Virus record (IMG/VR): IMGVR_UViG_3300002519_000024
Coordinates: 1 to 30,756 of that record
Direction: 5' to 3' (one strand)
Origin: a virus
DNA length: 30,756 bases
Numbering within the stretch: position 1 is the stretch's first letter; every line of letters starts with the position of its first letter. The notes beneath the pieces were generated by a model. The model was not told the origin of the DNA, did no database searches, and saw nothing but the letters and a program-made list of their open reading frames with translations. Shown here piece by piece: positions 3,444-23,044 of this stretch. The position numbers and the translations under genes were made by a program.

Positions 3444-3444
3444 C

Positions 3445-3606
3445 CTAGTAGATGTAGACCACCCCACGCTCCTGCTTAGGAGGCGTGGGCTGGGGGCGAG
3501 GGGTCCAGTACGGGGAGGGGAGAGGCAGCTCCAGTTGGGGCCGCTCCTCCTTCTTCCGCTCCTTCTCCCTCACCCACTCGATCACGACGGGGTGAGGTAG
3601 ATGCAT
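3445..3606 (-). CDS. Small proline-rich hypothetical protein
   Basis: A 53-residue protein whose ATG (3604-3606) lies one base after the TAG of the upstream gene at 3608, so it is probably translated by coupling; AAGGAG lies within the end of the upstream gene. The N-terminus is a charged helix (VVIEWVREKERKKEERPQ) and the C-terminal half is a proline-rich tail (PLPSPYWTPRPQPTPPK). It could be a short adaptor or a peptide accessory to the preceding membrane protein. The longer reading of this frame that begins at 3780 overlaps the upstream gene by 173 bases and is not credible. Confidence 0.6.
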   Translation of the reverse strand: MHLPHPVVIEWVREKERKKEERPQLELPLPSPYWTPRPQPTPPKQERGVVYIY

Positions 3607-3607
3607 C

Positions 3608-4954
3608 CTATCGCTTCTCCTTACGACCGGCGATACGGTCGACCTGCAGCTGTGCCGCCTTGACGCGCAGCTGTGCCGTCTGGACAGCAGCCAGAGCCCA
3701 CCTGCTGTCAGGCAGGTTCCGGTAGATGGACACTGCGTAACGCACTTCCTGGCTGGCCAAGTCAAGGACCCGCTGTGCACGAGCAGGGGTCATGGTCTTC
3801 CAGGCCACGCCCTTGCGGTTGTGGTCGAGGAGCACCTTGTCAGCGACCTCAGGGCTGATGTTCGAAGGCGGATCTATCTCGTAGACGGGGTTGGCGTACG
3901 TCCGCTCTGTCTTGGACAGGGCGCCCTTCACCTGAGTAGCCCGCTTACGGATCTGAGGCCCCTCGTCGTCCTGCTCCGTAGAGGAGACGGTCCCCTCCAT
4001 CACGTACTCGTTGGGCGGGAGGTCGGGGCAGTACTCGAAGTGGCCGTTGTGCTCCTGGTAGCACCAGTTGCAGGCCCAAGGGGTGGAAGGGCAGCCGTGG
4101 TCGTGGCCGTAGAGCTCGATCCACGCCATCATGCAATGGCAGTCCTCACACGACTCGGAGGTCGACCCGTAGTGGATGTCGTTGTCGTGAATCATAGAGT
4201 ACTTGCAGTGACGGTCGTCACTATCATGTCCATCCTCGGGGCCGCAGCACTCAGCGCAGCTCTCGTACTCGCGCTCTGCCCGCCGAAGCGCCTCTTCACG
4301 CTCCCTGTCCTCTCGGTCGAGGTCCTCGAACTGAGAAGCCAGCTCCTCCTGGTAGGAGGCGTTGTCCTCAGCAGCCTGCTCACTGTAGTCATGGTGGTTG
4401 GCACCGTCGAGGTACGAGTCCAGGGCGTCCCACATGGGGTGATCGGCAGGGGTGGCAGGGGTAGTAGTGAGGGTAGCCGTTGGTGAGAAGATGGGCCTAT
4501 GGCAGCGGACACAGAGACACTGGTTGCTGTCCATATGGACCATCTGCCTGGCCACGTAGTGAGGGTAGCCTTTGGAGACCAGCTTCTGGATGGTGATACG
4601 CCACGCCTTGGGCGTGGCCACCTTGGTCACCTTGCGACCCTTGGTCACGGGCAAGGAGAGCAGGTACGACAGGCACCTGCTGCAGAACAGCCGCACACGA
4701 CGCATGTCCCTGTTGAAGGGGGTGGTCACGTCTGCATGTGTGAAGTACCCCTTGATGGTACGGCACACATGCAGCATACGGCTGTACGTACGCATGATGC
4801 GCTCGCTCACCCATGAGGGCAAGCTCAGGGCCACGTGCATGGAGGGGTAGTGCCCCATCACACACTTGTAGATGTACAGGCGCAGGCCTGTACGCACGAT
4901 GTATCCCACCACCAGAAGGGCGATGAGAAGGAGAGCGGCATTCAAGTGTTGCAT
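3608..4954 (-). CDS. Membrane-anchored Cys/His-rich protein
   Basis: A 448-residue protein from ATG 4954, where AATAGGATAG precedes the start; an upstream ATG at 5014 would add 20 residues inside a palindrome-rich leader. Residues about 5-30 are a single hydrophobic segment (AALLLIALLVVGYIVRTGLR). The cytosolic part has two CxxC pairs (CSRC near 91-94, CVRC near 148-151) that could form one zinc ribbon. An acidic coiled coil (LDREDREREEALRRAEREYE) follows. A second Cys/His cluster near 230-310 includes CAECC, CEDCHC and CNWC. The C-terminus (about 375-448) is a helical, Ala/Gln-rich basic domain. Several metal sites are likely, but I recognise no family or enzymatic signature. It is the largest gene of the leftward set. 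Confidence 0.78.
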   Translation of the reverse strand: MQHLNAALLLIALLVVGYIVRTGLRLYIYKCVMGHYPSMHVALSLPSWVSERIMRTYSRMLHVCRTIKGYFTHADVTTPFNRDMRRVRLFCSRCLSYLLSLPVTKGRKVTKVATPKAWRITIQKLVSKGYPHYVARQMVHMDSNQCLCVRCHRPIFSPTATLTTTPATPADHPMWDALDSYLDGANHHDYSEQAAEDNASYQEELASQFEDLDREDREREEALRRAEREYESCAECCGPEDGHDSDDRHCKYSMIHDNDIHYGSTSESCEDCHCMMAWIELYGHDHGCPSTPWACNWCYQEHNGHFEYCPDLPPNEYVMEGTVSSTEQDDEGPQIRKRATQVKGALSKTERTYANPVYEIDPPSNISPEVADKVLLDHNRKGVAWKTMTPARAQRVLDLASQEVRYAVSIYRNLPDSRWALAAVQTAQLRVKAAQLQVDRIAGRKEKR

Positions 4955-4970
4955 GTCTATCCTATTGGTG

Positions 4971-5000
4971 TGTACGTACACGTGTATGTGTGTACGTACG
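4971..5000. promoter_or_regulatory. Overlapping palindromes, operator-like
   Basis: In the leader of the membrane-anchored Cys-rich gene, the palindrome GTACGTAC occurs at 4972-4979 and 4992-4999. The spacing is exactly 20 bp, about two helical turns. A further palindrome, TACACGTGTA, overlaps at 4977-4986. Such same-face palindrome pairs are typical of operators bound by dimeric regulators, but no regulator or promoter is assigned. Confidence 0.4.
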
Positions 5001-5011
5001 TGTATAGAGGG

Positions 5012-5048
5012 CACCCCTATATGAGGTACCCCCTATGTAGTAGGGGTG
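5012..5048 (-). ncRNA. Intergenic hairpin with two competing pairings (cassette E)
   Basis: Directly after the stop of the membrane protein gene (5051), CCCCTA (5030-5035) pairs with TAGGGG (5041-5046) around a 5-nt loop, again with GGTAC before it. The same right arm, extended to TAGGGGTG (5041-5048), also pairs perfectly with CACCCCTA at 5012-5019. The two structures exclude each other. The GTACCC-type stem relates it to the other spacer hairpins in this gene set. Confidence 0.5.
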
Positions 5049-5050
5049 TG

Positions 5051-5581
5051 CTAGCAGGTGCCTGCCATCATGGACGACACAAACAGCACGATGCTGACCA
5101 GGTTCATGCCACCCATGATGATGATGAGGGGGGCGTCGCCGTTGAGCAGGGAGATGAAAAAGAACATGCTGGCGATGACAGCCAGCATCCCCGACATGAC
5201 CATGAGCCACGTAACACACGTACCCAGCGCCCAGATGCAGGCGATGAAGATGGCCGTGGTGTACACGAGGGTGAGCCCGGGGGCAACCTTAGCCGTCCAC
5301 ACCCACAGGCAGCAAGCCATGTAGCTCATGATGCCAATGATGAAGGAGGAGGACAACACGAGCTGGCCCATGTACCCCTCATCACCGAAGGTAAGGAAGG
5401 CCAAGAAGAGACCGAACGTACCCAACAGGGTAAGGGCACTACCCCTGTACTCACGCAGCTGAGGGGCGATCGAGTGGATCATCCCACACGTGATCAGGGT
5501 CATGATGACCAAGATCATCATGCCACTACCGTGAGCGTCAACGAAGGAAGAGAAGAAAGAGATTAAGGAAGAGTAACTCAT
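5051..5581 (-). CDS. Polytopic membrane protein
   Basis: A 176-residue, very hydrophobic protein with about six membrane segments: ILVIMTLITCGMIHSIA, ALTLLGTFGLFLAFLTF, QLVLSSSFIIGIMSYMACCL, LTLVYTTAIFIACIWALG, VTWLMVMSGMLAVIASMFFF and PLIIIMGGMNLVSIVLFV. ATG 5581 is preferred because TTAGGA lies upstream; the ATG at 5605 has no ribosome binding site. It is the first gene transcribed leftward from the divergent region. No transporter signature is visible. A holin is possible on hydrophobicity alone, but it has more segments than most holins. Function is unknown. Confidence 0.8.
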   Translation of the reverse strand: MSYSSLISFFSSFVDAHGSGMMILVIMTLITCGMIHSIAPQLREYRGSALTLLGTFGLFLAFLTFGDEGYMGQLVLSSSFIIGIMSYMACCLWVWTAKVAPGLTLVYTTAIFIACIWALGTCVTWLMVMSGMLAVIASMFFFISLLNGDAPLIIIMGGMNLVSIVLFVSSMMAGTC

Positions 5582-5659
5582 GTGATATTGTCCTAACAAG
5601 AGCATGACACATATACGAACACAGGGAACACCCCCGGGCTCGCATGGGCCATTAGTGGC

Positions 5660-5676
5660 AACATACCTACTATGTT
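5660..5676. repeat. Inverted repeat, operator candidate (leftward side)
   Basis: AACATA (5660-5665) and TATGTT (5671-5676) are perfect inverted arms around CCTAC. The element lies about 80 bp upstream of the leftward membrane protein start, where a regulator could act. Confidence 0.45.
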
Positions 5677-5717
5677 AACCAGGTCCTCTCACATTTTTCT
5701 CTAAATTCATATAATTC

Positions 5718-5745
5718 TCTAGGCCCTAGAAGTCTACAAGACTTC
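5718..5745. repeat. Two adjoining inverted repeats
   Basis: TCTAGG/CCTAGA (5718-5723 with 5725-5730, one-base centre) is followed by GAAGTCT/AGACTTC (5729-5735 with 5739-5745, three-base centre). The two share their boundary bases, so they could be alternative structures or adjacent protein sites. Confidence 0.5.
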
Positions 5746-5785
5746 CACGGACCAGAGACCCCTCAAATAATTTTCTAATTCTTCT

Positions 5786-5829
5786 TCTCCTCCAGCTCCT
5801 CAAACATCTTATGACTCTCCTCCAGCTCC
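5786..5829. repeat. 14-nt direct repeat
   Basis: TCTCCTCCAGCTCC occurs at 5786-5799 and again at 5816-5829, 30 bp apart, near three helical turns. The interval lies inside the divergent region in a pyrimidine-rich stretch. Confidence 0.6.
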
Positions 5830-6195: not shown

Positions 6196-6528
6196 TTGAA
6201 TAGGCATCAGGAGGAAGTATGCCAGAAGCTTGGAATAGATTGGGAGACGTTTGACCTGATCATGGAGAAGCTTGGTGGTATACTACAAAGAAAGGACCTG
6301 TTGGAGAAGTACCTTGCGCTCAAGCGCAACTCCGATATGGGTGACAATTGCTACTATGCCGGCATCGCCGCGAACATGCTTGTCACCCATGGAACCTTTG
6401 ACGAGTTGAAGGAGTTGATAGTTGGGCTCAAAGAACTTACCGAAGAGACTAGACCCCAAACGGGTGAGGTCGAAGGCGGAGAAGAAGATACCGAAACACA
6501 AGCGGTACCCGGACATCTATCACTTTAA
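6196..6528 (+). CDS. Hypothetical helical protein, TTG start
   Basis: A 110-residue protein that starts at TTG 6196; AAGGAG lies seven bases upstream, overlapping the end of the previous gene. The first about 85 residues are helical and amphipathic (QEEVCQKLGIDWETFDLIME, FDELKELIVGLKELTEE). The last 25 residues (TGEVEGGEEDTETQAVPGHL) are acidic and low-complexity and lie in the 107-nt overlap with the next gene. The first part resembles small DNA-packaging or scaffolding-type helical proteins only in general character. A small terminase role is conceivable from its place in front of the packaging genes, but no helix-turn-helix is clear. Confidence 0.65.
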   Translation: MNRHQEEVCQKLGIDWETFDLIMEKLGGILQRKDLLEKYLALKRNSDMGDNCYYAGIAANMLVTHGTFDELKELIVGLKELTEETRPQTGEVEGGEEDTETQAVPGHLSL

Positions 6529-7414
6529 TACGTGGTTCAAGCAGAAGAGCAACGTACACAAACCCCTACACCCCGATTACAAGAGAATGAAGGAGAAGCT
6601 TCAATTGGACGCTATAACCAAGATGGATGATTTGGAAGAGGACGCACTCAAGAACGTGCAGAAGAGATTGGATGAGATAAAGGTGGAGGAGGAGCGGCAG
6701 GTCGCCTTGGCGGTCAAGCCATCGGACACCTGGTTCCAGACGTTGAATCTGGCCATAGATGAGTATCCCGACCTGCAGCTCACCCCTGAGGAGCAGCGAA
6801 GGGTTCACAAGTCGGCCCGCCTGACAAGAACCGGACTCGCCTCACAGGTTCCCATGACATGTCCCACACGAGAGAGATGTCCGTTCGCCAAGGGATGGCA
6901 GAACGGTGGAGGACATTGTGAGTATGCCAAGCTCCGCAAGGAGCCCATCGGAAAGCCCTGCATAGTGGAGATGGACCTTATCGCCTACAAGACCAAGGAG
7001 TATGCCGACCAGTTCGAGGTGGGCTCTACACCTGAGGAGGCGACCGACAGGTTGCAATGCATGGAGCTTGCCGAGTACGACGTGTATGAACGTAGAGTGA
7101 CCCTGCTTCTGGGTGGGAAGGAGCGCTCCGATCTGACGGAGGAGAATGTCATAGGTGTGGATGAGGCGGAAAATCCTATATATGCGAGACAGATCGCCTT
7201 GCCTTGGCATCTCAAGATTCAGATAAAGAACCGCCGGGACCGCGTCCTGCAGCAGATGGTGGCGACACGCAGGGAGAAGTATAAGAGAGCTGCCGCCATG
7301 GGCAAGCTGGAAGAGGGAGACGCCAACCTGGGCTTCGCCGGGGTCATGGGCAAGTTCGAGAGACTCCAGAAGGAAGGGGTCATAGACATCAACGTCTTCG
7401 AAGAGAATGAGTAA
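6422..7414 (+). CDS. Cys-motif phage protein, possible packaging or DNA-binding factor
   Basis: A 330-residue protein from TTG 6422, with GGAG and a 7-nt spacer upstream, overlapping the preceding gene by 107 nt. The N-terminus is very basic (KRLDPKRVRSKAEKKIPKHK). Residues 147-183 hold four cysteines in the pattern C147-x5-C153-PFA, C166 and PIGKPC180-xVE, which probably bind zinc or an iron-sulfur cluster. From memory, this CP...CPFA...PIGKpC.vE arrangement occurs in an uncharacterised protein encoded upstream of structural genes in other tailed phages. After it the protein is helical and charged. No catalytic motif is seen. A small terminase or other DNA-handling role is inference only. 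Its stop overlaps the start of the giant protein by one base. Confidence 0.72.
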   Translation: MGSKNLPKRLDPKRVRSKAEKKIPKHKRYPDIYHFNTWFKQKSNVHKPLHPDYKRMKEKLQLDAITKMDDLEEDALKNVQKRLDEIKVEEERQVALAVKPSDTWFQTLNLAIDEYPDLQLTPEEQRRVHKSARLTRTGLASQVPMTCPTRERCPFAKGWQNGGGHCEYAKLRKEPIGKPCIVEMDLIAYKTKEYADQFEVGSTPEEATDRLQCMELAEYDVYERRVTLLLGGKERSDLTEENVIGVDEAENPIYARQIALPWHLKIQIKNRRDRVLQQMVATRREKYKRAAAMGKLEEGDANLGFAGVMGKFERLQKEGVIDINVFEENE

Positions 7415-10400
7415 TGATCAAGGACTTCCTATCAAGGGCTAGCTTCTTCGATATCGAGACTACCGGTCTCGATCCCAGAAAATCCAGCACTTCGATTTGG
7501 GAAGGGGCCATCTATCATGAGGGCCGCAACACGGTTTGGAAGAGAGCCAAGCCCATCTCCCCCAATACAGGTCGGGTCATTCCGATCTCTCAGATGTCCC
7601 CGTGGACTCAAGCCTCTCTCAGTCAAGGAAGCACACCTATCACAGATGAGATCCTGAGCAAGGGTCTCAACCGCAAGCCTTTCATCAGCCGTATGCTCGG
7701 AGAGATGAAGGGAAGGGACGTGTGGGTCCAGAACCTGCCGTTCGAATCACGCCATTTGGCCGCCAACATGAGCGACCGCACCTACACAGACTTCATCAAG
7801 TCAGCCAGACTTCAGACCTTCTCTGTAAACAAGGACCCCATTACAGGCAAGCTCGCCTCAAGGCGTCTGTTCACCACCTCACCCATCGTAGAGCAGGCCG
7901 TGTCAAAGGCATGGGGAGCTGCGCCTGGCGACAGCTCGATGAAAGCATGGGGCGGTGTATGGGGTGCTATCAAGAAGGAGCTCACCCAAGGGGTTCCTGA
8001 TGATGTGACACGTATCTTCGACATCCAGGACGTATCCAGATCCTTGTTCGCAAAGGCTCAGATGGAAGGCTACATGAGACGTAGCGGTGACATCTTCACG
8101 GGCACCTCGGTGGAGACCTACTCCCAGTTGATGGAAGGTATGGCCGAGTCACACAGGGCCCCTGTCGATATCAAGGCACAGTCTCGAATGCTCAAGTCCT
8201 ATATGGGCATGCTCGAGAAGATGGATTCGGGTACTGGTCTCTCCATCAAGGAGAAGGACTATCTCATGTCCGTCTCTCTGCTCCAGCCCAAGTTGAAGAG
8301 ACAGAATGCCGCGAAGACCCTCTCTTCCGCCTATGCTCAGATCATGGACTTCAGAAGCAACCAGGGTCCTGGATATCCTGTGGCGATCGGAAGACGGATC
8401 AAGGACATCGAAGCAGGACACTACACCGGAAAGACGATCTCAAAGACCATTCCGGAGATGACGTACAAGCATCTGACGGACATGGAAGATGTAGTCGCAC
8501 AGCTGACAAGGTCTCAGGACAGGAACGTTCGGATCGGCCGGATGCACAGAGCGCAGAAGGTCGACTATCAATCTATGTGGGGCTCGATGAGAGGTGCTCT
8601 CAGAGGAAAGGAGAACTGGCAAGGTGCTCTGCATGAGTGGGAGAAGGGTTACAAGGTCAGTGATGAGGTCTATGGCTCATTGAGATCTGGAAAGGGTCTT
8701 CCTGGCGCAAGGGCTGGCAATGTCGGAGACAAGGCGTTCTCCTGGGCGAAGAAGAACTGGAAGGCTATTGCAGTGGGAGGAGCGGGAATCCTTGCGTTGC
8801 ATGCTCTGACCGGCGGGCCCAACAACGATCCTCTATACGGTGTTGATGTAGACGATCCCTATCCGGGAGACACCACGTCTCCTCCGTCTTTCAGTCCAAG
8901 CGGAAAGTTCGGCGGAGTCATTCACAGGAAGACTGATTCAAGCATGGCCATGTATGTTCCCGATTCCAAGGATACGATTCAGATCGAGGATGCTGACACC
9001 GCCATCCTCCACCTTGCAAAGGGAGGCACGCATGCCATTCGTATGGCTGGTATCGATGCTCCTGAGGTAGGCCACAAAGATGAGTATGCTGAGGGCAGAG
9101 TCCTTCAAGAGCAGCCGTATGGACAGGAGGCTACAGAGACTCTGAACCGACTTATGGGAGAGATGGACAGCGTAGGTGTACTGTTTGACGAAGCCGGCCG
9201 TACATCCTATGGCCGTACAGTCGGTGTCCTCATGGGAGAGAGAGACGGACAGCAGTTCAATCTGAATGAGATGCTTGTCAAGGCGGGTTCGGCAAAGTTC
9301 CTGCCATTCGGAAAGAGACGTGACTCCATCATCGACAGAGGCGCATTCCAAAGAGCGGAGAATGAGGCCTACGCAGCACACAGAGGCATGTGGGACGAAG
9401 AGGGGTGGAGAAGGGTAAGACAGGCAGAGGGTGACAAGGACACTGTCACAAACGTTTCGTTCACCAACATGGAAAGAATGAGCAACGACTTCAGGATCGC
9501 AGCACTTCTTCGTAGACAAAGAGACATGACCGTATCCTACAACCTCGCCGCTGGTGGCAAGGACGACCACAACGTCATCGAGGGTCTGCCCCATGGTTGG
9601 TTCGGCAGCAAGCGTAAGTACAACACCGACTTCGGCTCTGGTTACCAGGGAGAGAGCTTCGGTGTCGGAGACGCCATCTTCATGGCAGGCTCCGCGCTTA
9701 CAGGATTCGACAGGTTTGGAGGCAAGGGTGGAGCCATCGGTGCTGCGATCGGACTTGGCTGGACAGCTCTTACAAAGGGAACGTCTTCAGTACTGGGAGA
9801 CAGCACTGCGGGAGACGCCTGGAGGTTCTTGAGTGGTGGTATCACAGCTTCGGCAGCAACCTCCATGTTTGCATCATCCATGATGAAGGGTGGTCTTTTG
9901 GAGCCTGTTGGAAAGGAGATGTCTAAGGGCTTCTCGAGCTTGGTTGGAGGAACGACAAAGAAGTTCCTTGGGACCAGCTCTGGAGAGGCTTACCTGAAGA
10001 GTAGAGGTATGGCGAGAGAGCCTGCAGAGAAAGAGCTCCTGTCCTTCCTTGAGAGAACAAAGGATGACCCTCGTGGCTTCTTTGCTGTAATTCAAGAGGG
10101 TGGTGAGACATTGTCAGAGCTGGGTGGCTTCATGAGGAAGTCCGACTCAATTGGAACTAAGGGAGTCGGTGGCCTCCTCGGGTCACTTACAAATCCCTAT
10201 GTCCAAGGTTTCCTTGGCTCTCCGAAGCTGGCAGGTGCGATCAAGCATCACGGTACCAGAAAGGGTTTGACTGAGCACTTCGAAAAGGAGATGCCGTGGT
10301 TGGGTGTGACCAAGAACGATATTGAATACATAGCAGGAGAGGGTTTCTCCAAGCCAAGGTATATGGAGACTCTTAGGATGAGAGGCTTCAGGGACAAGAT

Positions 10401-13400
10401 CCATGAGCAGGCCTCTGTAGGTACGAGGAATGAGGTATTCACGAAGGTTAGAAAAGAGGTGTCCAAGGGGTATTCTTATGAGTACGGAGGCAAGACGTCT
10501 CACTTATTAAAGTCGAACGACGGCTTTGTTTCGGGCATGGGTCTTACCCATCGTGGACGAGCTGTCGCTGACAAAAAGATCGCTCCGTATGAACATGGTA
10601 AATGGGTTTCGGAAGGCAAGCCAGGTAAGTCCAAGCATTTCAGCCCGCATGAGATAGATCGGTTCCTAAAGTATGACAAGAACATTCTTGAACATGCACA
10701 GACAAGAGCCTCAATAAGAAAGGAAGTGGGAGAGGACACCTGGAAAAAGTGGACAGAGGGTCCTCTGGATGAGTATGGCAGCAATCCATTTACAGGTATG
10801 CTTGGACTCGCGGAGGGACTGACCAAGCAAAAGGAGGCTCTTGGTTGGAAATCATTGAATGTAAAGGACCTTGTCGAGAGCTCTTTTACGAAGAGCACGT
10901 ATGCAGACAGTTATAGGTATATTCCATCCAATCATGCTAGAGGACTTAGGGAAGCAGGGCTGAAAGACGCTATGTATGCGAAGGCTAATAGAATCTCCAT
11001 GGAGGAAGGAGGGATTGGAGCCATCCGTAAGGAGATGAAGGGTAAGTTCGCAGCCAGCGAAGGTGAGATGAGCACTCACTTCCTTGATGCAAGTGCAGGT
11101 CTGAAAGACATCCCAGCAGAAGAATATTTCAAGGCGAATGCTCTTGACCTTTATTACGGAGCGGCTGGTGGTCTTATGTTGGGTGGTGCTGTCGGCGCTC
11201 TAAATATGGGTTACGATGCGCTCTTCGGAAGAAGCACCTTCTCTGGGCACGATGACAACTACAACACAATCGAGGGCCTCTCTCACAAGGGAATGGCAGG
11301 AGCATCACGTAGGCGCAATACTGGCTTCGGATCTGGCTGGAAGGGAATCTTTGGAGGCTATAAGAAGTTCATGGCTGCCAGCAGGGAGGAGATCGGCTCT
11401 GCACTTAGAGGGTGGGCTGGTAAGAGATCTGTGGTCCAGAAGGGTCTCCTCGGTCAGCCTGCTGCATTGCAAATGGCGTTGACCAGTGAAGGATTGTCCG
11501 GCGCTATTTTTCAAGATCCCCATGCGATAAGTTTTTTTTCTCGTCATCTTAAAGTTAATCCAAAAATTCTTGAGGAAGTTACTGTAGCACATGAGGTATC
11601 AGAGCTTTACCATGGTTTACGGATTGGAGAGAAGACTCTTGCTGGCATGGGGTCTCCAAAGAGATCTATTATAGACAGACTTTTTGGAAGGAATAAGACT
11701 CATTCAGAAGAGGCTATTAAGAGTGCTCTTAATTCATCTTTACAACCTACATTTGGCTCTCACTTTAGTCCCTCTGTTATCGCTGATGAATTAATTTATG
11801 GCGCAAAGATGGGTCCAGAGCATTATGATGTTGTAAAACGAATGCGTATGTGGGAGATTGCCAATCAGCCTGACAAGGCATACGCAACAAGAACTCGAAA
11901 GATAATCGCTGCATTTGAAAAGAACCAACTGCCAAAGTTCTCTGGATTCGATGATGCCTATAACACCATTCGGGGCCTTCCTCATAATGGAAAGGCAGGG
12001 GCATCACGTCGACGTAACACACACTTTGGATCTGGATATAAGGGAGATGAAGGGCTTACTGTCGGAGGTATTCTTTCTGGCGCAAACAAGCTCTTTATGG
12101 TTGGTGCCTCTGCCATTACAGGGTACGATCGCTTTGGTGTTCGAGGAGCAATTGGTGGGGCAGCCCTTGGTATCGGCCTTGGCTTTGGAATGGAGCTTGG
12201 CAAGTTTGACCACGCAGAAGGAAATCTTGGAAAGACTCTTTGGAACGTAGGACTTGAGGGCATAGGAACATCTGCAGGAGCCTCCATGCTTGCATCGTCG
12301 ATGATGAAAGGGGCATTCTTCAGAGGGAAGCTGGGAAAGTACGGTACAGATGAGCAGCTTGTGGGCATGGCTGAGAGCCTAGGTCTTTCTCCTGAAATAG
12401 GAAAGGCAGGTGGCATGTATGGGATGTTGGGGAGATCTTATAGGCAAAAGATTGAAACTGCACTCCCAGGTAAGCTTGGAGAGATTCTGGGAAGAGGAGT
12501 GGAGGCTCAAACAGGATCTCCTCACATGTTGGATGCAGTTCTTCAGCATGGTTCCATTCAAGCGATTCCTCCTCAAGAGTTCTTTATTGCGAATGCAAGA
12601 GATGTTATGTCTGGTGCTGCTGCGGGCTTTGTGGCATCAAGTCCCATTGCATTCGGTTCGTACCTGTTCTCTGGAAAAGACGATGCTTACAACTCGATCG
12701 AAGGTCTTCCTCATAAGGGGATGGCTGGGGCCAGTCGTAGACAAAGAACCGACTTCGGGTCTGGTTATCAAGGAGAAGATCAGGTTGGAGCCTTTGGCGG
12801 TATGGTGGGACTCGGAGCCACCCTCTATGCAGGTCGTGGCGCATACAGTGTTCGTGGAAACTTGATGATGGCTCGTGGCCACTGGCGTGGATACATGGAC
12901 TTCTTCCATGGTACTCCGATTGCGAACAGAGCGAATATCTTGGCGGAAGGTCTTGTGCCCAATGCCAAGGACTGGGACAAGATCAAGCATCTGACTCCTA
13001 CAGACCCTGCTCAGAAGGCTCTGTTCGCTCAAATTAGAGAGAAGGGAGAGAGGGTATTCTTCTCTGGTGAATCTTGGATTGCAAGAGCACATGCAAGTCA
13101 ACAGGTAAAGCAGAACATTGGTCCTTTTATGGAAAACATGGGAAAGGCCAAAGGTATGCTGGGTTATTTCCACCCTTCTGTTCATGGAGGAAAAGCAGAG
13201 GGAGCGATATTCAAGTTCCGCCTTCCGATGGAAGAGATCGCTTCTCAGACTGGCCTCTTGGCTCAGTATGAAGCCATTACAGGGAGTGAAGGAGTTTCTA
13301 AGTTTCTCAAGGGATGGGGAGATGCATTTGCTTCTCATACAGGTCCTTCTATTGACCTATCAAGAGCAGGAGGGGTGGCTCCTGAACTCTTTAATGAGGT

Positions 13401-13671
13401 AATTCCGACAAGAGGAGGAGAGATTCTCTGGGGAGAGAAGGAGGTCCTAAGGGCTGCAGAAACCACAGGCTTTAAGCCCAATAAGGCAAAGGCTGCTGGA
13501 AGATTTGCTCTTGCAATGGCTCCAATAGTATTGGCAGGCTGGGGAGTGAACAAGATGTGGAATGCGATGCATACAGACGCGACTACAGACATGAAGAAGA
13601 AGATGTCCAGGAAGAATATTCAAGGACATGCTAATATGGATCCAAAGAGGCATATGAATATTTATGGCTAA
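7414..13671 (+). CDS. Giant multi-domain polyvalent-type protein (exonuclease, SNase, ART)
   Basis: A 2085-residue protein starting in a TAATG overlap. Residues 11-20 read FFDIETTGLD, the first motif of DnaQ-type exonucleases (Asp13, Glu15). A weaker second motif, WVQNLPFESRHLA, is near 105-115, and a HRAQKVD string near 378-384 may or may not be the third. Residues about 517-675 are a staphylococcal-nuclease domain: RMAGIDAPE (Arg543, Asp548, Glu551), YGR with Arg601, LVKAGSAKF and the closing AYAAHRGMW. Four copies of GASRRRNTxFGSGY-like motifs begin near 717, 1280, 1513 and 1756. Residues about 1365-1510 carry HEVSE...SHFSPSV, a possible metal site. Residues about 1828-2015 resemble ADP-ribosyltransferases (FFHGT, VFFSGESWIARAHA, GGE). 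Several Gly/Ala hydrophobic segments suggest membrane contact. It is likely packed in the virion and delivered with DNA, by analogy with phage polyvalent proteins. Confidence 0.85.
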   Translation: MIKDFLSRASFFDIETTGLDPRKSSTSIWEGAIYHEGRNTVWKRAKPISPNTGRVIPISQMSPWTQASLSQGSTPITDEILSKGLNRKPFISRMLGEMKGRDVWVQNLPFESRHLAANMSDRTYTDFIKSARLQTFSVNKDPITGKLASRRLFTTSPIVEQAVSKAWGAAPGDSSMKAWGGVWGAIKKELTQGVPDDVTRIFDIQDVSRSLFAKAQMEGYMRRSGDIFTGTSVETYSQLMEGMAESHRAPVDIKAQSRMLKSYMGMLEKMDSGTGLSIKEKDYLMSVSLLQPKLKRQNAAKTLSSAYAQIMDFRSNQGPGYPVAIGRRIKDIEAGHYTGKTISKTIPEMTYKHLTDMEDVVAQLTRSQDRNVRIGRMHRAQKVDYQSMWGSMRGALRGKENWQGALHEWEKGYKVSDEVYGSLRSGKGLPGARAGNVGDKAFSWAKKNWKAIAVGGAGILALHALTGGPNNDPLYGVDVDDPYPGDTTSPPSFSPSGKFGGVIHRKTDSSMAMYVPDSKDTIQIEDADTAILHLAKGGTHAIRMAGIDAPEVGHKDEYAEGRVLQEQPYGQEATETLNRLMGEMDSVGVLFDEAGRTSYGRTVGVLMGERDGQQFNLNEMLVKAGSAKFLPFGKRRDSIIDRGAFQRAENEAYAAHRGMWDEEGWRRVRQAEGDKDTVTNVSFTNMERMSNDFRIAALLRRQRDMTVSYNLAAGGKDDHNVIEGLPHGWFGSKRKYNTDFGSGYQGESFGVGDAIFMAGSALTGFDRFGGKGGAIGAAIGLGWTALTKGTSSVLGDSTAGDAWRFLSGGITASAATSMFASSMMKGGLLEPVGKEMSKGFSSLVGGTTKKFLGTSSGEAYLKSRGMAREPAEKELLSFLERTKDDPRGFFAVIQEGGETLSELGGFMRKSDSIGTKGVGGLLGSLTNPYVQGFLGSPKLAGAIKHHGTRKGLTEHFEKEMPWLGVTKNDIEYIAGEGFSKPRYMETLRMRGFRDKIHEQASVGTRNEVFTKVRKEVSKGYSYEYGGKTSHLLKSNDGFVSGMGLTHRGRAVADKKIAPYEHGKWVSEGKPGKSKHFSPHEIDRFLKYDKNILEHAQTRASIRKEVGEDTWKKWTEGPLDEYGSNPFTGMLGLAEGLTKQKEALGWKSLNVKDLVESSFTKSTYADSYRYIPSNHARGLREAGLKDAMYAKANRISMEEGGIGAIRKEMKGKFAASEGEMSTHFLDASAGLKDIPAEEYFKANALDLYYGAAGGLMLGGAVGALNMGYDALFGRSTFSGHDDNYNTIEGLSHKGMAGASRRRNTGFGSGWKGIFGGYKKFMAASREEIGSALRGWAGKRSVVQKGLLGQPAALQMALTSEGLSGAIFQDPHAISFFSRHLKVNPKILEEVTVAHEVSELYHGLRIGEKTLAGMGSPKRSIIDRLFGRNKTHSEEAIKSALNSSLQPTFGSHFSPSVIADELIYGAKMGPEHYDVVKRMRMWEIANQPDKAYATRTRKIIAAFEKNQLPKFSGFDDAYNTIRGLPHNGKAGASRRRNTHFGSGYKGDEGLTVGGILSGANKLFMVGASAITGYDRFGVRGAIGGAALGIGLGFGMELGKFDHAEGNLGKTLWNVGLEGIGTSAGASMLASSMMKGAFFRGKLGKYGTDEQLVGMAESLGLSPEIGKAGGMYGMLGRSYRQKIETALPGKLGEILGRGVEAQTGSPHMLDAVLQHGSIQAIPPQEFFIANARDVMSGAAAGFVASSPIAFGSYLFSGKDDAYNSIEGLPHKGMAGASRRQRTDFGSGYQGEDQVGAFGGMVGLGATLYAGRGAYSVRGNLMMARGHWRGYMDFFHGTPIANRANILAEGLVPNAKDWDKIKHLTPTDPAQKALFAQIREKGERVFFSGESWIARAHASQQVKQNIGPFMENMGKAKGMLGYFHPSVHGGKAEGAIFKFRLPMEEIASQTGLLAQYEAITGSEGVSKFLKGWGDAFASHTGPSIDLSRAGGVAPELFNEVIPTRGGEILWGEKEVLRAAETTGFKPNKAKAAGRFALAMAPIVLAGWGVNKMWNAMHTDATTDMKKKMSRKNIQGHANMDPKRHMNIYG
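9562..9663 (+). repeat. FGSG motif copy 1 (coding repeat)
   Basis: Residues about 717-750 of the giant protein read DDHNVIEGLPHGW...YNTDFGSGYQG. This is the most divergent of four copies, lacking the GMAGASRR part. It is followed by a module with TGFDRFG and ASSMMKG that recurs after copy 3. Confidence 0.75.
11251..11346 (+). repeat. FGSG motif copy 2 (coding repeat)
   Basis: Residues about 1280-1311 read DDNYNTIEGLSHKGMAGAS, then RRRNTGFGSGW. It is preceded by a hydrophobic Gly/Ala segment and a PAEEYFKANALD string that has a counterpart (PPQEFFIANARD) before copy 4. Confidence 0.8.
11950..12045 (+). repeat. FGSG motif copy 3 (coding repeat)
   Basis: Residues about 1513-1544 read DDAYNTIRGLPHNGKAGAS, then RRRNTHFGSGY. 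The following module (ITGYDRFGVRGAIGGA, LASSMMKG) matches the one after copy 1, showing a large internal duplication. Confidence 0.8.
12679..12774 (+). repeat. FGSG motif copy 4 (coding repeat)
   Basis: Residues about 1756-1787 read DDAYNSIEGLPHKGMAGAS, then RRQRTDFGSGY. It is the last copy and lies directly before the ADP-ribosyltransferase-like domain. Confidence 0.8.
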
Positions 13672-13849
13672 AAAAGAAAACATTGGTCCTATCAAGGACA
13701 GAAGGTATAGAGAGGCTACGGTGAATAGGAGGAGCGCCTTTACGAGGGTATTGTGCGACCCCACATTCGTACCCATCTTCATCAAGAGAACACTGGACAG
13801 CAAACCAGCGGAACATTTATTGGATCCGTTCGGTTTTAGGAATGCATAA
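13664..13849 (+). CDS. Small basic hypothetical protein
   Basis: A 61-residue protein whose ATG overlaps the last codons of the giant protein (8-nt overlap) and whose stop overlaps the next start by one base. This tight packing on both sides supports a real gene. It is basic at the N-terminus (MAKKENIGPIKDRRYREATV), with a hydrophobic middle (VLCDPTFVPIFIKRTL) and a short C-terminal tail ending DPFGFRNA. No family is recognised. It may be an accessory to the giant protein or to the glycine-rich proteins that follow. Confidence 0.7.
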   Translation: MAKKENIGPIKDRRYREATVNRRSAFTRVLCDPTFVPIFIKRTLDSKPAEHLLDPFGFRNA

Positions 13850-14733
13850 TGATCCCACAAGAACTATGGACCGATAGGGCGCTCGAGTATGAGGGCGCAG
13901 GTAGAATGCAGAATGCAATGATGGCCCGTGCCACAGGCACAGGTCGGATTGGCCGGATGAGAGTTCGTCAAGGACTTTCGGCAGCTCGCAAAGGGTGGGC
14001 AACGATGGCAAACAAAGGTCAGGCCTGGGCGGCAGGAGAGTTCAGCGCCGGAGCTTGGCATGGAGCAGATGGTAAGAAGATCTCTCAACGAGCTCTGTGG
14101 AAATCTGATAGTCCTTTAGCAATGCTGCAAGAAGCGAAGTACACCAAGCCTGGTCAGCGGCGTGCCTTTGACAAATGGGGTAAGGGTGTAAATCCTGAGA
14201 AGTTCTTTGGAAGAGGAGCGGCTGGTCACCTGTCTAGGGGCGCTAGCAATACTGTCAAGAACACTGGCAGTGCCTTTGCGATGGGTGCACTCGGAGGCGG
14301 CTACGGGGCTCTTCTTGGGGGAATCTTTCTTCATGGCGGAGCCATGGGAATGTCAGGTAACAATGTAGCATCTCCATACGATGGATTCGTTCGAGGAGCT
14401 GTCCATACGGCAGCTGGATTCCTTGGATTCGATTTAGGTATGAGTGCAGGCGCGGCAGTCGGTGCGACATTAGGTTCGGTGCTTGGGCCCGCAGGTACCG
14501 TTATTGGTGCAGCAGTAGGCGGGCTCGCAGGCGCTATGGGCTTGGAAGCTGCATCAGATCTTCCTTGGAAGATTGCAGAGATGGGATATGCGGCGACCAA
14601 ACCGTTCGCTTCTCCTTTCCTAGATTCACAAAGAGCTGCTACAATGAGACAGAGGTCTATGAATATGATAAACCAGTCTGCCATGAATGCCAGAAGTGCA
14701 TTGAGTATGGAAGCAGCTGGGTATCACCTATAA
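13849..14733 (+). CDS. Glycine-zipper membrane protein, probable virion/ejection protein
   Basis: A 294-residue protein that starts in a TAATG overlap. The N-terminal about 135 residues are soluble, basic and helical (RIGRMRVRQGLSAARKGWAT). Residues about 140-170 and 185-235 are Gly/Ala-rich hydrophobic segments with repeated GxxxG spacing (FAMGALGGGYGALLGGIFLH; AAVGATLGSVLGPAGTVIGA; VGGLAGAMG), typical of glycine zippers that pack in membranes or form pores. The C-terminus is Met/Arg/Ser/Asn-rich (MRQRSMNMINQSAMNARSAL). Its position between the giant protein and two more glycine-rich proteins, ahead of the terminase, suggests a virion component that helps DNA or the giant protein cross the host membrane. 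That role is inferred from composition and context only. Confidence 0.75.
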   Translation: MIPQELWTDRALEYEGAGRMQNAMMARATGTGRIGRMRVRQGLSAARKGWATMANKGQAWAAGEFSAGAWHGADGKKISQRALWKSDSPLAMLQEAKYTKPGQRRAFDKWGKGVNPEKFFGRGAAGHLSRGASNTVKNTGSAFAMGALGGGYGALLGGIFLHGGAMGMSGNNVASPYDGFVRGAVHTAAGFLGFDLGMSAGAAVGATLGSVLGPAGTVIGAAVGGLAGAMGLEAASDLPWKIAEMGYAATKPFASPFLDSQRAATMRQRSMNMINQSAMNARSALSMEAAGYHL

Positions 14734-14743: not shown

Positions 14744-15115
14744 ATGTGGAATAAAATGACAGACGCACTCAACAGTGCAAACGATTGGATGAGAGCTCCA
14801 GAGAACAGGAACGTCGCTCTTGGTCTTGCTGGCGCGGCAGCTATTCCAGCTCTTTACATGGCCGGTCCTACCGGAACAGGCATGGCTGCTGGTGGTTACT
14901 TTGGTGCACGCTCAGCGATGAGCGGCATGGCAAGGCCTCTTGCTGGGAAGATGGGAGCCACAATGCTCAAGGCGAGTGGAAGGGCTGGCTATATGCGTGG
15001 CGCACACTCTCTTGGTGTGTTTAGTGGCAATGCTCTAAGAGGTGGTATCGGTGGAGTCGCAGGAGCCGTCGGTGGAGGAATCGCTGGTGCAGCTCTCGGA
15101 GCCCTCTGGGATTAA
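14744..15115 (+). CDS. Small glycine-zipper membrane protein
   Basis: A 123-residue Gly/Ala-rich protein; ATG 14744 has AAGAGG six bases before it. It begins MWNKMTDALNSANDWM and has two hydrophobic Gly/Ala stretches (VALGLAGAAAIPALYMAGPT; GGIGGVAGAVGGGIAGAALG), the second with strict GxxxG periodicity. The opening MWN and the overall plan are shared with the next gene (15117-15416), which suggests tandem duplication. Likely a membrane-active virion protein. A holin is an alternative, but the location among the head genes argues against lysis. Confidence 0.75.
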   Translation: MWNKMTDALNSANDWMRAPENRNVALGLAGAAAIPALYMAGPTGTGMAAGGYFGARSAMSGMARPLAGKMGATMLKASGRAGYMRGAHSLGVFSGNALRGGIGGVAGAVGGGIAGAALGALWD

Positions 15116-15116
15116 G

Positions 15117-15416
15117 ATGTGGAATACACTTAAAACTAATGCGGAGCCTATCATGCAGGCAGTGAAAGCAAACCCGATGAAGGCTCTTGGCTACAGTGCT
15201 GTGGGCCTTGGCTCTATCGCTGGTGTAACAGGGATAAATGCCTTGGCGTATGAGCATGCAGGTGGTTTCTGGGGCGCAGCAGGTACAGGAGGTATCGCTA
15301 GTGCAATCACCGGCTATGCCGGTGGTGGTGGTGTGCGAGGAGCTATCGCTGGAGGGATCGCAGGGGGACTCTTTACTGGGTTCACGGCAATGGGGTCTCA
15401 CGCTCTTTGGTACTAA
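15117..15416 (+). CDS. Small glycine-zipper membrane protein, paralogue of preceding gene
   Basis: A 99-residue protein whose ATG is one base after the upstream TAA. It starts MWNTLKTNAEPIMQAVKANP and continues with a Gly/Ala hydrophobic body (LGYSAVGLGSIAGVTGINAL; GGGGVRGAIAGGIAGGLFTG) with glycine-zipper spacing. It ends HALWY, with no soluble domain. The first ten bases (ATGTGGAATA) match the start of the preceding gene. The HNH gene begins directly after its stop. It probably acts with the two glycine-rich neighbours. Confidence 0.75.
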   Translation: MWNTLKTNAEPIMQAVKANPMKALGYSAVGLGSIAGVTGINALAYEHAGGFWGAAGTGGIASAITGYAGGGGVRGAIAGGIAGGLFTGFTAMGSHALWY

Positions 15417-15908
15417 ATGGCCTATTGTAAGTTCAGAAAAATAAAGAGAAGGACAAAGGATATACTGGACCCCATGGGGACCCGACTTCCTTTGACAAAG
15501 AGGCGTAGTCGTAACAGAAAAGCTCGCCTCATGTCTCACCTCAAAAGACTAAGTTTTCAAAAGAAATCAGCAGCGATGAAGCGAATCTACAACTCTCCGG
15601 AGTACAAGGCCTGGCGCAGGTCTGTCTTTGTCAGAGATAACTTCGCTTGTATCATGTGTGGCAGCGACGGATACGTTGAGGGACATCATATCCTTAGAAA
15701 ATGGGACTACCCTGCATTGGTCTTCAACATGCATAACGGAGTCACTCTTTGTGGCCCGTCTACCAACAAGAAGTCCTGCCATGGCAAGGTCACGGGAAAA
15801 GAATACAAGTACATCACTAAGATCATGAGTAAGATGGGTGATCTTCAGAGAGCTCAGTTCAGACACATCTTAAAAAAGAAAGGAGTGAAACATGGACCGA
15901 GAAAGTAA
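15417..15908 (+). CDS. HNH endonuclease beside terminase
   Basis: A 163-residue protein with a full HNH signature: C78-x2-C81 and C112...C121 for the structural zinc, GHH (His90-His91) and Asn107, closing with SCHGK (His122). The first 50 residues are strongly basic (RRTKDILDP, TKRRSRNRKARLM) and should bind DNA. HNH proteins encoded beside the large terminase are common in tailed phages, where they are known to assist the terminase in making DNA ends at cos or pac sites. A freestanding homing role is the alternative. The position directly upstream of the terminase and the normal base composition favour the packaging role. Confidence 0.88.
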   Translation: MAYCKFRKIKRRTKDILDPMGTRLPLTKRRSRNRKARLMSHLKRLSFQKKSAAMKRIYNSPEYKAWRRSVFVRDNFACIMCGSDGYVEGHHILRKWDYPALVFNMHNGVTLCGPSTNKKSCHGKVTGKEYKYITKIMSKMGDLQRAQFRHILKKKGVKHGPRK

Positions 15909-15945: not shown

Positions 15946-17988
15946 ATGGAAGGATTAACTCTTCACCCAGCATGCATCCGTTGTAAGAAGAAGAATACCC
16001 TCGAGAAGGATATTGTTCTGGAAGACGGGACCACGGTGTTCAAAGCCGGAGAGTTCCCCATCCAATGCAAAGGTATCCCTGCTGATTTCGGCCAGGTGGT
16101 AGACAAGGTCCTTGGTGACAAAAGAAGCTTCTTTGATAAGAATGAAGTTGAGATGCTTGAAGAAGGTCTCGACGCTACCAAGTGGGCAAAGAAGTGGTTG
16201 CTCGTTGATAAGGGTGGCTGGGAGCCGAGAGGTTGTACCCCACCCAACAAGCTTAAGTATGACCTTGATGACGATGCTGATATCTACCAAGAGATCATGC
16301 TCAAGTGTACTGCGAAGCGTAAGGTCTTCAGGATTGGACGACGTGGTGGAAAGACAGAGTCCATCTGTGTCAAGATGCTTCATCTCATTGACACCTGGCC
16401 TACGGGTCACTGTAAGATCCTTCTTGTCTGTCCTTTCAGATCACAGATCGATATTATCTACAAAAGACTCAATGAGTTGATCGCAGACTCTCCACGTCTG
16501 AAGAACCTCATCAAGCGCAAGGTCTCCAATCCATATCACGAGATCGAGTTTACCAATGGTTCCTACATCCGTGGCTTCTCAGCAGGCACCAACTCTGGTG
16601 CTAATGCTTCTTCCGTACGTGGACAGGGTGGTGACGTTATCGTTCTTGACGAGACGGACTACATGAACCCTGGAGATATCGACTCCATCGCAGCTATCCT
16701 GATGGACCACGAAGACACTCAGCTATGGGCCTCATCTACACCCACAGGTCGTAGGGACAAGTTCTATGAGTGGAGCTTCGACCCAGAATACAAGAACTTC
16801 CACTTCCCATCGATGGCGAACCCAAACTGGACCCACCGTATGGACCTTGAGTTCCGACGTACCCTTACCAAGGGCGGTTATATTCATGAGGTCCTTGCAG
16901 AGTTCGGAGACGACGATGCCGGAGTCTTCAGAAAGAAGGACATCGACTATGCCCTCAAGTGGGGCGGCAACTATGACTATGATGACAGCTACCATAGTCA
17001 GATCAATGCTCCAGGATGGGCCTATACGATCGGAGTGGACTGGAACCCGGTAAAGGGTACAGAGGTCATGGTCCTTGGTATTCATAGGTACACAAAAGAA
17101 GAGGCAGAGCTCGAAGGTGATTCTGCTCTTGAGGGAGAAGCATTCTTCAGGGTCGTTGACTCAAAGACCGTAGAAAGACAAGAGTTTACTGAAAGAGCGG
17201 CCAACCTGGAGATCATTCGTATGAATAGAAAGTGGGCACCGTTCGCTATCTATCTTGACTACGGTGGTGGTGGTGTCAATCACTTAGAGCAACTTAGAAT
17301 CTTCTCTGCGACAAAGCCCGATGGAACTGCTGACGGTAGAATCAAACACATCACCAAGAGCATCAACTTCTCTGGAAACATCGAAGCTTACGACCCTTGG
17401 TCCAAGAAGAAGACCAAGAAGCGTGCGAAGCAGATGATGATTGAAAATGCTCAGCGAAAGTTTGAGCAGCACAAGATTCAGTTGACGCAAGCAGATCCCA
17501 TTTTGACAAAGCAACTAGAGAACTATATTATCTCTCGTGTGACTCAGACCGGAATTCCGGTTTATGAAATGCAATCAGATGCGGTCGGAGACCACAAGCT
17601 TGATGCACTAGTTCTAGCATTGTTAGCAGTTCAGATGGAAGCGACCCAGTTCGGCAAGCCACGGCATGACGCAAAGATGCGTGTCGCCCCTGGTCTCGGA
17701 CAGGACATAGAGACTTCCGTAATAGAAGAACTTGGCAAGGCTGGAGTCAGCACCAAGCAACAGTTGAAGCTGGAGTTAGCCCCACAGCCTCGTGCTGTCA
17801 ACGAAATGATCACACCGCGAACGGTGGTAAGGAGGAGTGACCATACTCATCGGTTCGCAAACGATAGAGATCATGAAAAGGACTGGGACAGAAGATTATT
17901 AGCGCAACGCAAATCCAAGGTCAATAGAGGCAAGGGGTTTGGCAGGTTAAGAAATTCTCGAGGTCCACCAAGAAGATCGAACTTTTAA
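15946..17988 (+). CDS. terL: Large terminase subunit (TerL), DNA-packaging ATPase/nuclease
   Basis: A 680-residue protein with both terminase domains. ATPase: Walker A RIGRRGGKTES (Lys136, Thr137), Walker B VIVLDETDYM (Asp235, Glu236), coupling motif SSTPTG (263-268). Nuclease, RNase H-like: Asp365 in GVDWNP, Asp438 in YLDYGGGG, and the pair Asp549/Asp553 in GDHKLDALVLAL. The N-terminus has an extra CIRC...CKG segment (Cys10, Cys13, Cys41) that might bind metal. TerL pumps DNA into the prohead through the portal and cuts it. The C-terminal tail is basic (RKSKVNRGKGFGRLRNSRGP) and could contact DNA. Its start directly follows a mini-ORF, which suggests coupled translation. Confidence 0.96.
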   Translation: MEGLTLHPACIRCKKKNTLEKDIVLEDGTTVFKAGEFPIQCKGIPADFGQVVDKVLGDKRSFFDKNEVEMLEEGLDATKWAKKWLLVDKGGWEPRGCTPPNKLKYDLDDDADIYQEIMLKCTAKRKVFRIGRRGGKTESICVKMLHLIDTWPTGHCKILLVCPFRSQIDIIYKRLNELIADSPRLKNLIKRKVSNPYHEIEFTNGSYIRGFSAGTNSGANASSVRGQGGDVIVLDETDYMNPGDIDSIAAILMDHEDTQLWASSTPTGRRDKFYEWSFDPEYKNFHFPSMANPNWTHRMDLEFRRTLTKGGYIHEVLAEFGDDDAGVFRKKDIDYALKWGGNYDYDDSYHSQINAPGWAYTIGVDWNPVKGTEVMVLGIHRYTKEEAELEGDSALEGEAFFRVVDSKTVERQEFTERAANLEIIRMNRKWAPFAIYLDYGGGGVNHLEQLRIFSATKPDGTADGRIKHITKSINFSGNIEAYDPWSKKKTKKRAKQMMIENAQRKFEQHKIQLTQADPILTKQLENYIISRVTQTGIPVYEMQSDAVGDHKLDALVLALLAVQMEATQFGKPRHDAKMRVAPGLGQDIETSVIEELGKAGVSTKQQLKLELAPQPRAVNEMITPRTVVRRSDHTHRFANDRDHEKDWDRRLLAQRKSKVNRGKGFGRLRNSRGPPRRSNF

Positions 17989-20953: not shown

Positions 20954-23044
20954 ATGGCTTTTTGGGACGATTGGTTCAAAAGTACAGACGCTAAGAAGCA
21001 GAGATCCAAGACGATTAGGATCTCTCGTGTCCGCACATTGATAGACCCTACACTCAATTACCCCCAAGCTCTGGGCGGTGGTCGTTGGTCAGGCGATGGC
21101 TTCAACGTACCTGAATACAACTTCCTTGAGATAGGTCAGGCAGAAGACACAGAGTCTTATGTAATGCAGGCTCATCTAAAGAAGCTTGCACTGATGTTTA
21201 AGGAGGGCTTCGACTTCGTTGGTCAAGATGAGCAGTCTGTCCAGTATATCCTGAAGAGGATCTCTCAAATAGAAAGGGCCTGCTGTCATTCATTCTGGAA
21301 TCTCCTTGTGGGTGTCGGTCATGACCTGATCAGATACTCCAACTCCTTCATGGTAAAGGTTCGCAAAGAATTCGATAACAAAGGCAGACCTGTCTCTGGA
21401 GGGCTGGTTCGAACAACTCCTGATGGAAAGAAACTTGAACCTATCGCTGCCTACTTCCGCCTCTCCCCTGAAACCGTAGAGATCAAAAGAAACAAGTCCA
21501 ATGGAAAGGTAGAAAGATATCGTCAGGTAATGCCAGATGGATCCAAGAAGGAGTATCCAGCTCACGACGTCATTCACTTCCACTTCAATCGCAAAGGTCA
21601 CTTTGACGTGGGGACTCCTTCAATCATTCCAGTACTAGATGATATCCGTGCTCTTCGTAGAATCGAACAGAACGTAGAGATCCTGGTCTACCAACACCTC
21701 TTCCCGCTATACCAATACACAGTCGGCACAGAGGACGCTCCCGCACAGGTCTATACAGACGGAGAGTCTGAGATTGACCTTGTACGCAAAGAGATTGAGA
21801 TGCTCCCTGCAGAAGGAATGCTCGTAACTCCAGAGAGACATGAGATCAAGCCTGTCGGAGCAGAGGGCAGTGCTCTAAAGGTAGAGGGATACCTAGAGCA
21901 CTTCAAGAAAAGAATTATTGCTGGACTAGGAGTTTCCGCTGTAGACTTCGGTGACGGAAACACTGCCAACAGAGCTACGGCAGATAATATGTCAAGGCTC
22001 TTAATCGACAATGTTAAGTTTTATCAACAGGTTCTCTCTGATCAGATCAAGACGTTTGTGTTAGATGAACTGTTATTGGAAAGCACCTTTGATGGCGACA
22101 AGCTATCTTTGGACAGAGCGGTACGTCACCGCTTCAATGAGATTGATACTGAACAACAGATCAAGGTAGATACGCATGCCTCCTTGATGTACCAGTCGAA
22201 TGTCTGGACACTGAATGAGGCAAGAGAACGAATGAACAGGAATCCTCTTTCTCCTGGTGACGAGAGTGATCTTCACTTAGAGAAGGTTGAGAAGAGCATG
22301 CTTCAAGAGACCGCAAGGTTGGCTCCTTCTCCTGCAGCGGGGTCTTCTTCGGACGATCCTGCAAAGAAGGCTACGGCTACAAAGACCAGACCTTCTAATC
22401 AGCATGGGACCAAGAGTGGCCCAGAGAAGAAGCGTAGCTTTGTGGACATGGGGCTAGGTGAACAGTTCGACGAGATCAGAGACGACGTAATCTCTTTGAT
22501 CAAGAGAGATGGAGATAGACTTAACCAAGGCTTGATTCGACAGACCATCCTTGCTGGAGCGACAGCTTCAAAACAAGAGTATAAGAGCAAGGTCTTTAAC
22601 GCGATGGTCAGAGGAGCTAGAGCTGGTGGTCTTTCTCATAGCGACGCAGAGCAATTGGTCGGTAGGCGTATGACGCCTATGATCACACGGTTCGATTCAG
22701 ACATAGATCGTCTTTATAGACAGGTCAGTCATCTGATTGGAAATCTAGTTTCACAAAGAGGAGACAAGTCTCCGGAGGTGAGGCTGGCATTCAACTCATT
22801 GAGGTACAGAACAAAGTTCATTGCTGCAACCGACATGCATCGTGCAGAGAACTTTGGAAAGGGTATCGCCATGAATGCTCTTGGGCACGAAGTCGCGATC
22901 TCAACACAGCACAGTGATGAGGATGATATCTGTAAGGAACGCCACGGACAGGAAATACAGCTCTTGGCTTTGGGAATCGATGAGGTTCCTCCCTACCATC
23001 CCATGTGCCAATGTGATCTCACCCCAAAGAGGACAGATGATTAA
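20954..23044 (+). CDS. Portal protein fused to MuF-type head morphogenesis domain
   Basis: A 696-residue protein with a ribosome binding site (AAGGAG) in the end of the previous gene. Residues about 1-460 fit a tailed-phage portal: GDGFNVPEYNFLEIGQ, the HFHFNRKGHFDVGTPSIIPV region where portals carry their conserved clip and crown entry, and FKKRIIAGLGVSAVDFGDG. A disordered linker (about 455-490, SSSDDPAKKATATKTRPSNQ) leads to a C-terminal helical domain that ends AATDMHRAENFGKG, then PPYHPMCQCDLTP (His682, Cys685, Cys687), the hallmark of the phage Mu gpF-like family. The portal is the dodecameric DNA channel; MuF-type domains act in early head assembly or are injected. Fusion of the two in one chain is known in some phages. 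Confidence 0.92.
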   Translation: MAFWDDWFKSTDAKKQRSKTIRISRVRTLIDPTLNYPQALGGGRWSGDGFNVPEYNFLEIGQAEDTESYVMQAHLKKLALMFKEGFDFVGQDEQSVQYILKRISQIERACCHSFWNLLVGVGHDLIRYSNSFMVKVRKEFDNKGRPVSGGLVRTTPDGKKLEPIAAYFRLSPETVEIKRNKSNGKVERYRQVMPDGSKKEYPAHDVIHFHFNRKGHFDVGTPSIIPVLDDIRALRRIEQNVEILVYQHLFPLYQYTVGTEDAPAQVYTDGESEIDLVRKEIEMLPAEGMLVTPERHEIKPVGAEGSALKVEGYLEHFKKRIIAGLGVSAVDFGDGNTANRATADNMSRLLIDNVKFYQQVLSDQIKTFVLDELLLESTFDGDKLSLDRAVRHRFNEIDTEQQIKVDTHASLMYQSNVWTLNEARERMNRNPLSPGDESDLHLEKVEKSMLQETARLAPSPAAGSSSDDPAKKATATKTRPSNQHGTKSGPEKKRSFVDMGLGEQFDEIRDDVISLIKRDGDRLNQGLIRQTILAGATASKQEYKSKVFNAMVRGARAGGLSHSDAEQLVGRRMTPMITRFDSDIDRLYRQVSHLIGNLVSQRGDKSPEVRLAFNSLRYRTKFIAATDMHRAENFGKGIAMNALGHEVAISTQHSDEDDICKERHGQEIQLLALGIDEVPPYHPMCQCDLTPKRTDD

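Follow-up and report, generated by a model that had tools for sequence, protein, structure and literature searches.

A recurrent FGSG connector and shuffled modules in giant proteins encoded near the virion genes of uncultured large phages

Results

A giant gene upstream of the packaging genes

The DNA analysed here (the window) is a viral record of 30.8 kb that lies wholly inside the 120-kb record G001 at 100% identity. A gene at 7414..13671 on the plus strand, which carries all features below unless stated otherwise, encodes a giant modular protein of 2085 residues. The first-pass annotation of the window had called a single uninterrupted frame, and this is confirmed: the gene starts with ATG, contains no internal stop and encodes an identical protein in G001. 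Close versions are found in the records G002 (95% identity) and G003 (88% over the part present in that record). The gene is preceded by a conserved Cys-rich gene of 330 codons (6422..7414; the true start is probably downstream of 6422) and followed by a glycine-zipper protein of 294 residues (13849..14733; Pfam Gly-zipper, E 5e-4), which ends in the tail MRQRS...NAR.AL..EA..H. Then come two small Gly-rich reading frames (14744-15115, 123 residues; 15042-15416, 124 residues), an HNH endonuclease, the terminase large subunit TerL (15946..17988; phrog_2, E 3e-25), the portal protein (20954..23044; phrog_9232, E 4.5e-48; MTATph1 portal, E 2e-78) and a likely capsid gene. The location directly before glycine-zipper genes and packaging genes had been described correctly at first pass. 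HNH endonuclease genes at 15417-15908 and 22875-23459 are placed between virion genes and are possibly homing endonucleases; as the second call overlaps the end of the portal gene, its true start is likely later. Positions 1-5800 hold no convincing plus-strand genes, the long open reading frames there being doubtful on both strands (for example 3608-5014, minus strand).

Two nuclease domains

Residues 1 to about 315 (7414..8358) are a DEDDh (DnaQ-type) exonuclease by profile, motifs and predicted fold. The single giant protein gave a weak DnaQ match (phrog_192, E 0.05), whereas a profile built from eight relatives matched the PolC-type DnaQ structure PDB 2p1j at E 5e-5, the motifs lining up in register. 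The AlphaFold model of the region reached a mean pLDDT of 78.6 and a pTM of 0.79, and Foldseek paired it with DnaQ and RNase T at a probability of 1.00. Within this RNase H-like fold, motif I is formed by D13 and E15 of the segment FFDIETTG (residues 11-18), motif II by N107..E111 and motif III by H247..D252 (the H....D pattern); D13, E15, N107 and D252 are invariant across the eight relatives. The Asp of motif II is replaced by Glu111 in the window protein and its nearest relatives, and is present in several other members. Because of this substitution the exonuclease activity predicted for the window protein is uncertain. The DnaQ-type start recognized at first pass is therefore real, with the domain spanning residues 1 to about 315 and not 1-130. 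A combined alignment of residues 1-760, in which exonuclease-only rows were misplaced, was left out of the folding.

An Ala/Gly hydrophobic segment follows at residues 451-468 (8764..8817). It falls below a Kyte-Doolittle value of 1.6, so membrane insertion is uncertain. The Gly/Ala hydrophobic segments reported between the domains do exist, but they are only moderately hydrophobic, none exceeding 1.6 over 19 residues.

Residues 517 to about 700 (8962..9513) are, by sequence, a staphylococcal nuclease (SNase) with a complete predicted active site. The match to PF00565 (E 7.2e-15; 55.8 bits against the curated Pfam cut-off of 21) lies far beyond chance and bears out the earlier reading of a complete signature (RMAGIDAPE, YGR). 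The segment contains a DADT motif, IRMAGIDAPE at residues 542-551 and YGR at 599-601; its catalytic set (D, R, D, E, R) is complete and is kept in about a dozen relatives.

The FGSG connector defines a family of giant proteins

The repeated FGSG motifs noted at first pass correspond to four copies of a connector, located at residues 714-746 (9553..9651; E 1e-14), 1277-1311 (11242..11346; E 3e-18), 1510-1544 (11941..12045; E 2e-17) and 1753-1787 (12670..12774; E 3e-20), with E values from an iterated profile. The corresponding DNA repeats are 64-90% identical. With the four 35-residue copies as seed, viral contigs were scanned and the profile was iterated, which yielded 133 copies in 55 giant proteins of uncultured large phages (non-redundant at 80% identity). 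These proteins have 339-2418 residues and 1-6 connectors each, and a few are truncated by contig ends. Nearly invariant are the F, G and S of FGSG, a Gly after His, an Arg and a Thr. The Glu of the IEG stretch of the connector is not invariant, being present in 74 of 102 copies. We considered the connector as a general prohead-protease site and rejected this on account of the variable Glu and the absence of the connector from the other open reading frames of FGSG loci.

The window protein ends in a tail with a G..H signature (residues 2060-2085; 13591..13668). The tail pattern, chosen after the tails had been seen, occurs in 38 of the 54 complete FGSG proteins compared to 7% of internal 35-mers. 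Searches of GenBank phages and plasmids by tblastn with the whole giant protein and the connector consensus gave no match at the sensitivity used, and in one-per-species bacterial genomes none of nine pattern matches to the connector was confirmed.

Modules are shuffled between connectors

Cutting the 55 proteins at their connectors gave 169 segments, 138 of which have at least one homolog among the others; they form 23 clusters whose positions relative to the connectors vary. SNase domains, for example, precede the first connector in some proteins, follow the last in others and also occur between two connectors. Among 40 members compared with Pfam, 12 have SNase and nine kinase-like matches, and there are also Cas4/RecE-like, DnaJ and Ntox37 matches; exonucleases likewise belong to the module set. 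The compact kinase cluster covers 25 proteins and has HxD and DFG-like motifs, with little sequence after DFG in the aligned members. The cluster that unites exonuclease and SNase is composite, because linked domains merge. Judged by these comparisons, cargo modules are shuffled among FGSG proteins. The intein domains PF14890 and PF14528 each match one FGSG protein.

In the window protein, the module at residues 747-1276 (9652..11241) has no Pfam match. Segment clustering shows that it opens with a Gly/Ala segment that is a paralog of the first part of the Gly/Ala-rich module at residues 1545-1752 (12046..12669), which is itself homologous to residues 261-488 of member L039. The C-terminal module (residues 1788-2045; 12775..13548) is a candidate ADP-ribosyltransferase (ART), with an FFHGT...EGLVP segment whose HGT part, we assume, resembles that of known ARTs. 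It is 44% identical to a module that lies between connectors 1 and 2 in member L025, where the FFHGT..AN..L..GL.P pattern is conserved; a YHGTS...EGL segment occurs in member L029. Neither Pfam nor PDB profiles matched the module significantly, the PDB RNA 2'-phosphotransferase reaching only E 2.5, and its AlphaFold model (pLDDT 36.5) was not usable. From the ART triad (H/R-Y/S-E), the HGT motif alone was found. The ART-like C-terminus of the first-pass annotation is thus not upheld beyond the motif, and an ART at this position is possible.

A module swap bounded by connectors

Phages with about 99-100% DNA identity to each other differ by a replaced tract in the giant gene. Comparison of the window gene with that of the near-identical locus L002 revealed DNA identity of about 98-100% over the codons for residues 1-1250 and 1501-2085, and of 40-60% across most of a tract from 11268 to about 11927. 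This tract, which is replaced relative to G002 and G003, encodes a module (residues 1286 to 1505, approximately) with HEVSELYH and FGSH motifs. Its left end falls inside the DNA of connector 2, and on the right it stops about 11-14 bases short of connector 3. The two encoded versions are still recognizably homologous (FGSH..P.VI.DE). Locus L003 carries the L002 allele at 100%, and G001 carries the window allele; the assemblies with the two alleles are likely independent. We read the replaced tract, the one event dissected, as a cassette exchange by recombination at the connector repeats. The FGSG motifs, a side detail in the first-pass annotation, are the defining element of the whole family and mark where exchanged modules begin and end. 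At 14909-15060, within the small Gly-rich gene that follows the glycine-zipper gene, another short tract fails to align with the near-identical relatives.

Two genomic settings and cultured counterparts

The Cys-rich upstream gene has a homolog in 37 of 45 loci, and a glycine-zipper gene and TerL follow the FGSG gene at each of the 38 loci that have sufficient flanking sequence. A second group comprises eight members that lack the upstream gene; in the two that were closely examined, the FGSG gene follows the tail sheath and neighbouring structural genes. One 204-kb record contains a member of each group. The tail-cluster FGSG genes of L068 (6930-11852) and L122 (7002-11927) occupy about the position expected for a tape measure gene and have a module of about 1250 residues. 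The Gly-zipper proteins encoded between the FGSG gene and TerL (in L024, L026, L036, L038, L039 and others) combine variable bodies with strongly conserved tails (NSTxGLVQGLHRGRHG; TMRQRSLQAI..S.LNGR.ALGNEA..MH), which are possibly packaging signals.

This occurrence in two separate virion-gene clusters bears on whether the protein could be a non-packaged, membrane-associated late or counter-defence protein that acts inside the cell. Hydrophobic segments directly before the connector, found in part of the members at 15% observed compared to 1.7% expected (and not above threshold in the window protein), would suit such a protein. The virion-gene context in both clusters speaks against it, and we regard it as improbable.

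The packaging cassette is also present in the cultured phages ME3, KLEB27-3 and MTATph1, including homologs of the upstream gene, which corresponds to parts of ME3_9, KLEB27-3 gp005 and MTATph1 CDS0247. In Acinetobacter phage vB_AbaM_ME3 (Metrivirus, 235 kb), the corresponding slot, upstream of TerL and the glycine-zipper protein, is taken by ME3_11, which has a homologous N-terminal exonuclease (HMM E 1.4e-11; structure match E 8e-14) and a similar C-terminus. Unlike the window protein, ME3_11 has 529 residues and is an exonuclease only, without FGSG connector, SNase or other cargo. The slot in KLEB27-3 holds a 257-residue protein without exonuclease that ends in ERIGHHKMGNSKFQ. By eye this end resembles the tails of the FGSG family; the tail profile gave it no score, and no significant profile link was obtained between FGSG-protein tails and cultured-phage tails.

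The fixed position beside TerL and the portal gene, the predominance of nucleases among the cargo and the exonuclease-only ME3_11 would all be expected of a head or packaging nuclease. Its exonuclease, SNase and Cas4-like domains would act on DNA of the phage itself, in concatemer trimming, debranching and head completion, while connectors and hydrophobic parts would anchor it at the portal or membrane. A nuclease-biased cargo would also fit DNA packaging or maturation, which counts against an effector role. Kinase, DnaJ, Ntox37 and ART-like cargo and the rapid swapping of modules, however, are ill-suited to housekeeping, and the slot protein of KLEB27-3 is small and lacks the exonuclease. We consider a packaging nuclease unlikely and favour an effector, as set out below.

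Discussion

The general kind of protein to which the FGSG family appears to belong is known. Polyvalent proteins, described from phages and conjugative elements (Iyer et al. 2017, PMC5512222), are giant multidomain proteins that mix nucleases, kinases lacking the C-lobe and ARTs, and they are encoded among late genes. The FGSG proteins likewise join disparate domains in one polypeptide (exonuclease and SNase here; kinase, DnaJ and Cas4-like domains in relatives) and are encoded near virion genes, with TerL downstream at every locus with enough flank. In contrast to polyvalent proteins, no FGSG-family Pfam match was to a polyvalent-protein-specific domain. PHROG 8809, a family of 2317 positions, also has an SNase within a giant phage protein and matches eight of 40 members; its match to the window protein is confined to the SNase part. 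The ejection (internal virion) proteins of T7, P22 and N4 may be a functional analogy, as they are delivered with DNA, have hydrophobic parts and would act alike, but no sequence relation to FGSG proteins was found. The papers searched did not mention the connector or a role for it in delimiting swaps, and nothing relevant to the motif or the domain combination turned up in the literature open to searching, which excludes most subscription journals. That literature also gave no description of the two genomic sites or of the connector-bounded swap.

Disparate effectors, late-gene context and a C-lobe-less kinase match the polyvalent concept and make a virion-carried, exchangeable effector the most likely explanation. 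On sequence and analogy, then, the FGSG gene probably encodes a polyvalent effector whose cargo is exchangeable, and we infer that the protein is carried in the virion and delivered with the phage DNA. The first-pass annotation had proposed a virion-borne protein with several weapons. Two nuclease domains agree with that proposal and the ART is a possible third; for virion carriage, the arguments are genomic context and the polyvalent resemblance. The frame of such a protein would often include an exonuclease at the N-terminus, together with FGSG connectors close to hydrophobic segments and the conserved C-terminal tail. It would hold variable cargo, here the DEDDh exonuclease, the SNase and further modules including the ART-like one, that may break down nucleic acid of the host or modify its proteins upon entry. 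Phages would trade this cargo by recombination, with crossovers inside the connector-encoding DNA repeats or next to them.

Connector and tail might serve in docking, as a packaging signal or as a processing site. The last of these relates to a further explanation, compatible with the effector reading, in which the protein is a polyprotein cut at the FGSG connectors by a prohead protease or a protease of its own, giving separate effectors and no lasting full-length protein. Polyvalent proteins are thought to undergo processing (PMC5512222), the connector is independent of the cargo, and the HEVSELYH...FGSH module might be zincin-like. The link to a protease is hypothetical, however; the connector profile matches no other virion genes in FGSG loci and the inconstant Glu of the IEG stretch also argues against cleavage, which we think rather unlikely. 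Returning to the virion-carried effector, we tentatively suggest, with somewhat less than even confidence, that the connector is dedicated to loading: as a short peptide it would dock or process the cargo to be packaged and ejected, and its DNA repeat would double as the recombination site at which large phages swap injected effectors. This would make the FGSG proteins a phage counterpart of polymorphic toxin cassettes.

The family suggests the existence of a widespread lineage of large phages in which exchangeable effector enzymes may be kept in one protein. The diagnostic connector lets such putative effectors be located from sequence and makes every newly found inter-connector module a candidate anti-host or counter-defence enzyme. 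ME3, with a minimal version of the protein, and KLEB27-3, with a cargo-free version in the slot, are both cultured and make the effector idea testable. Connector and tail may reveal how large phages load proteins into their particles.
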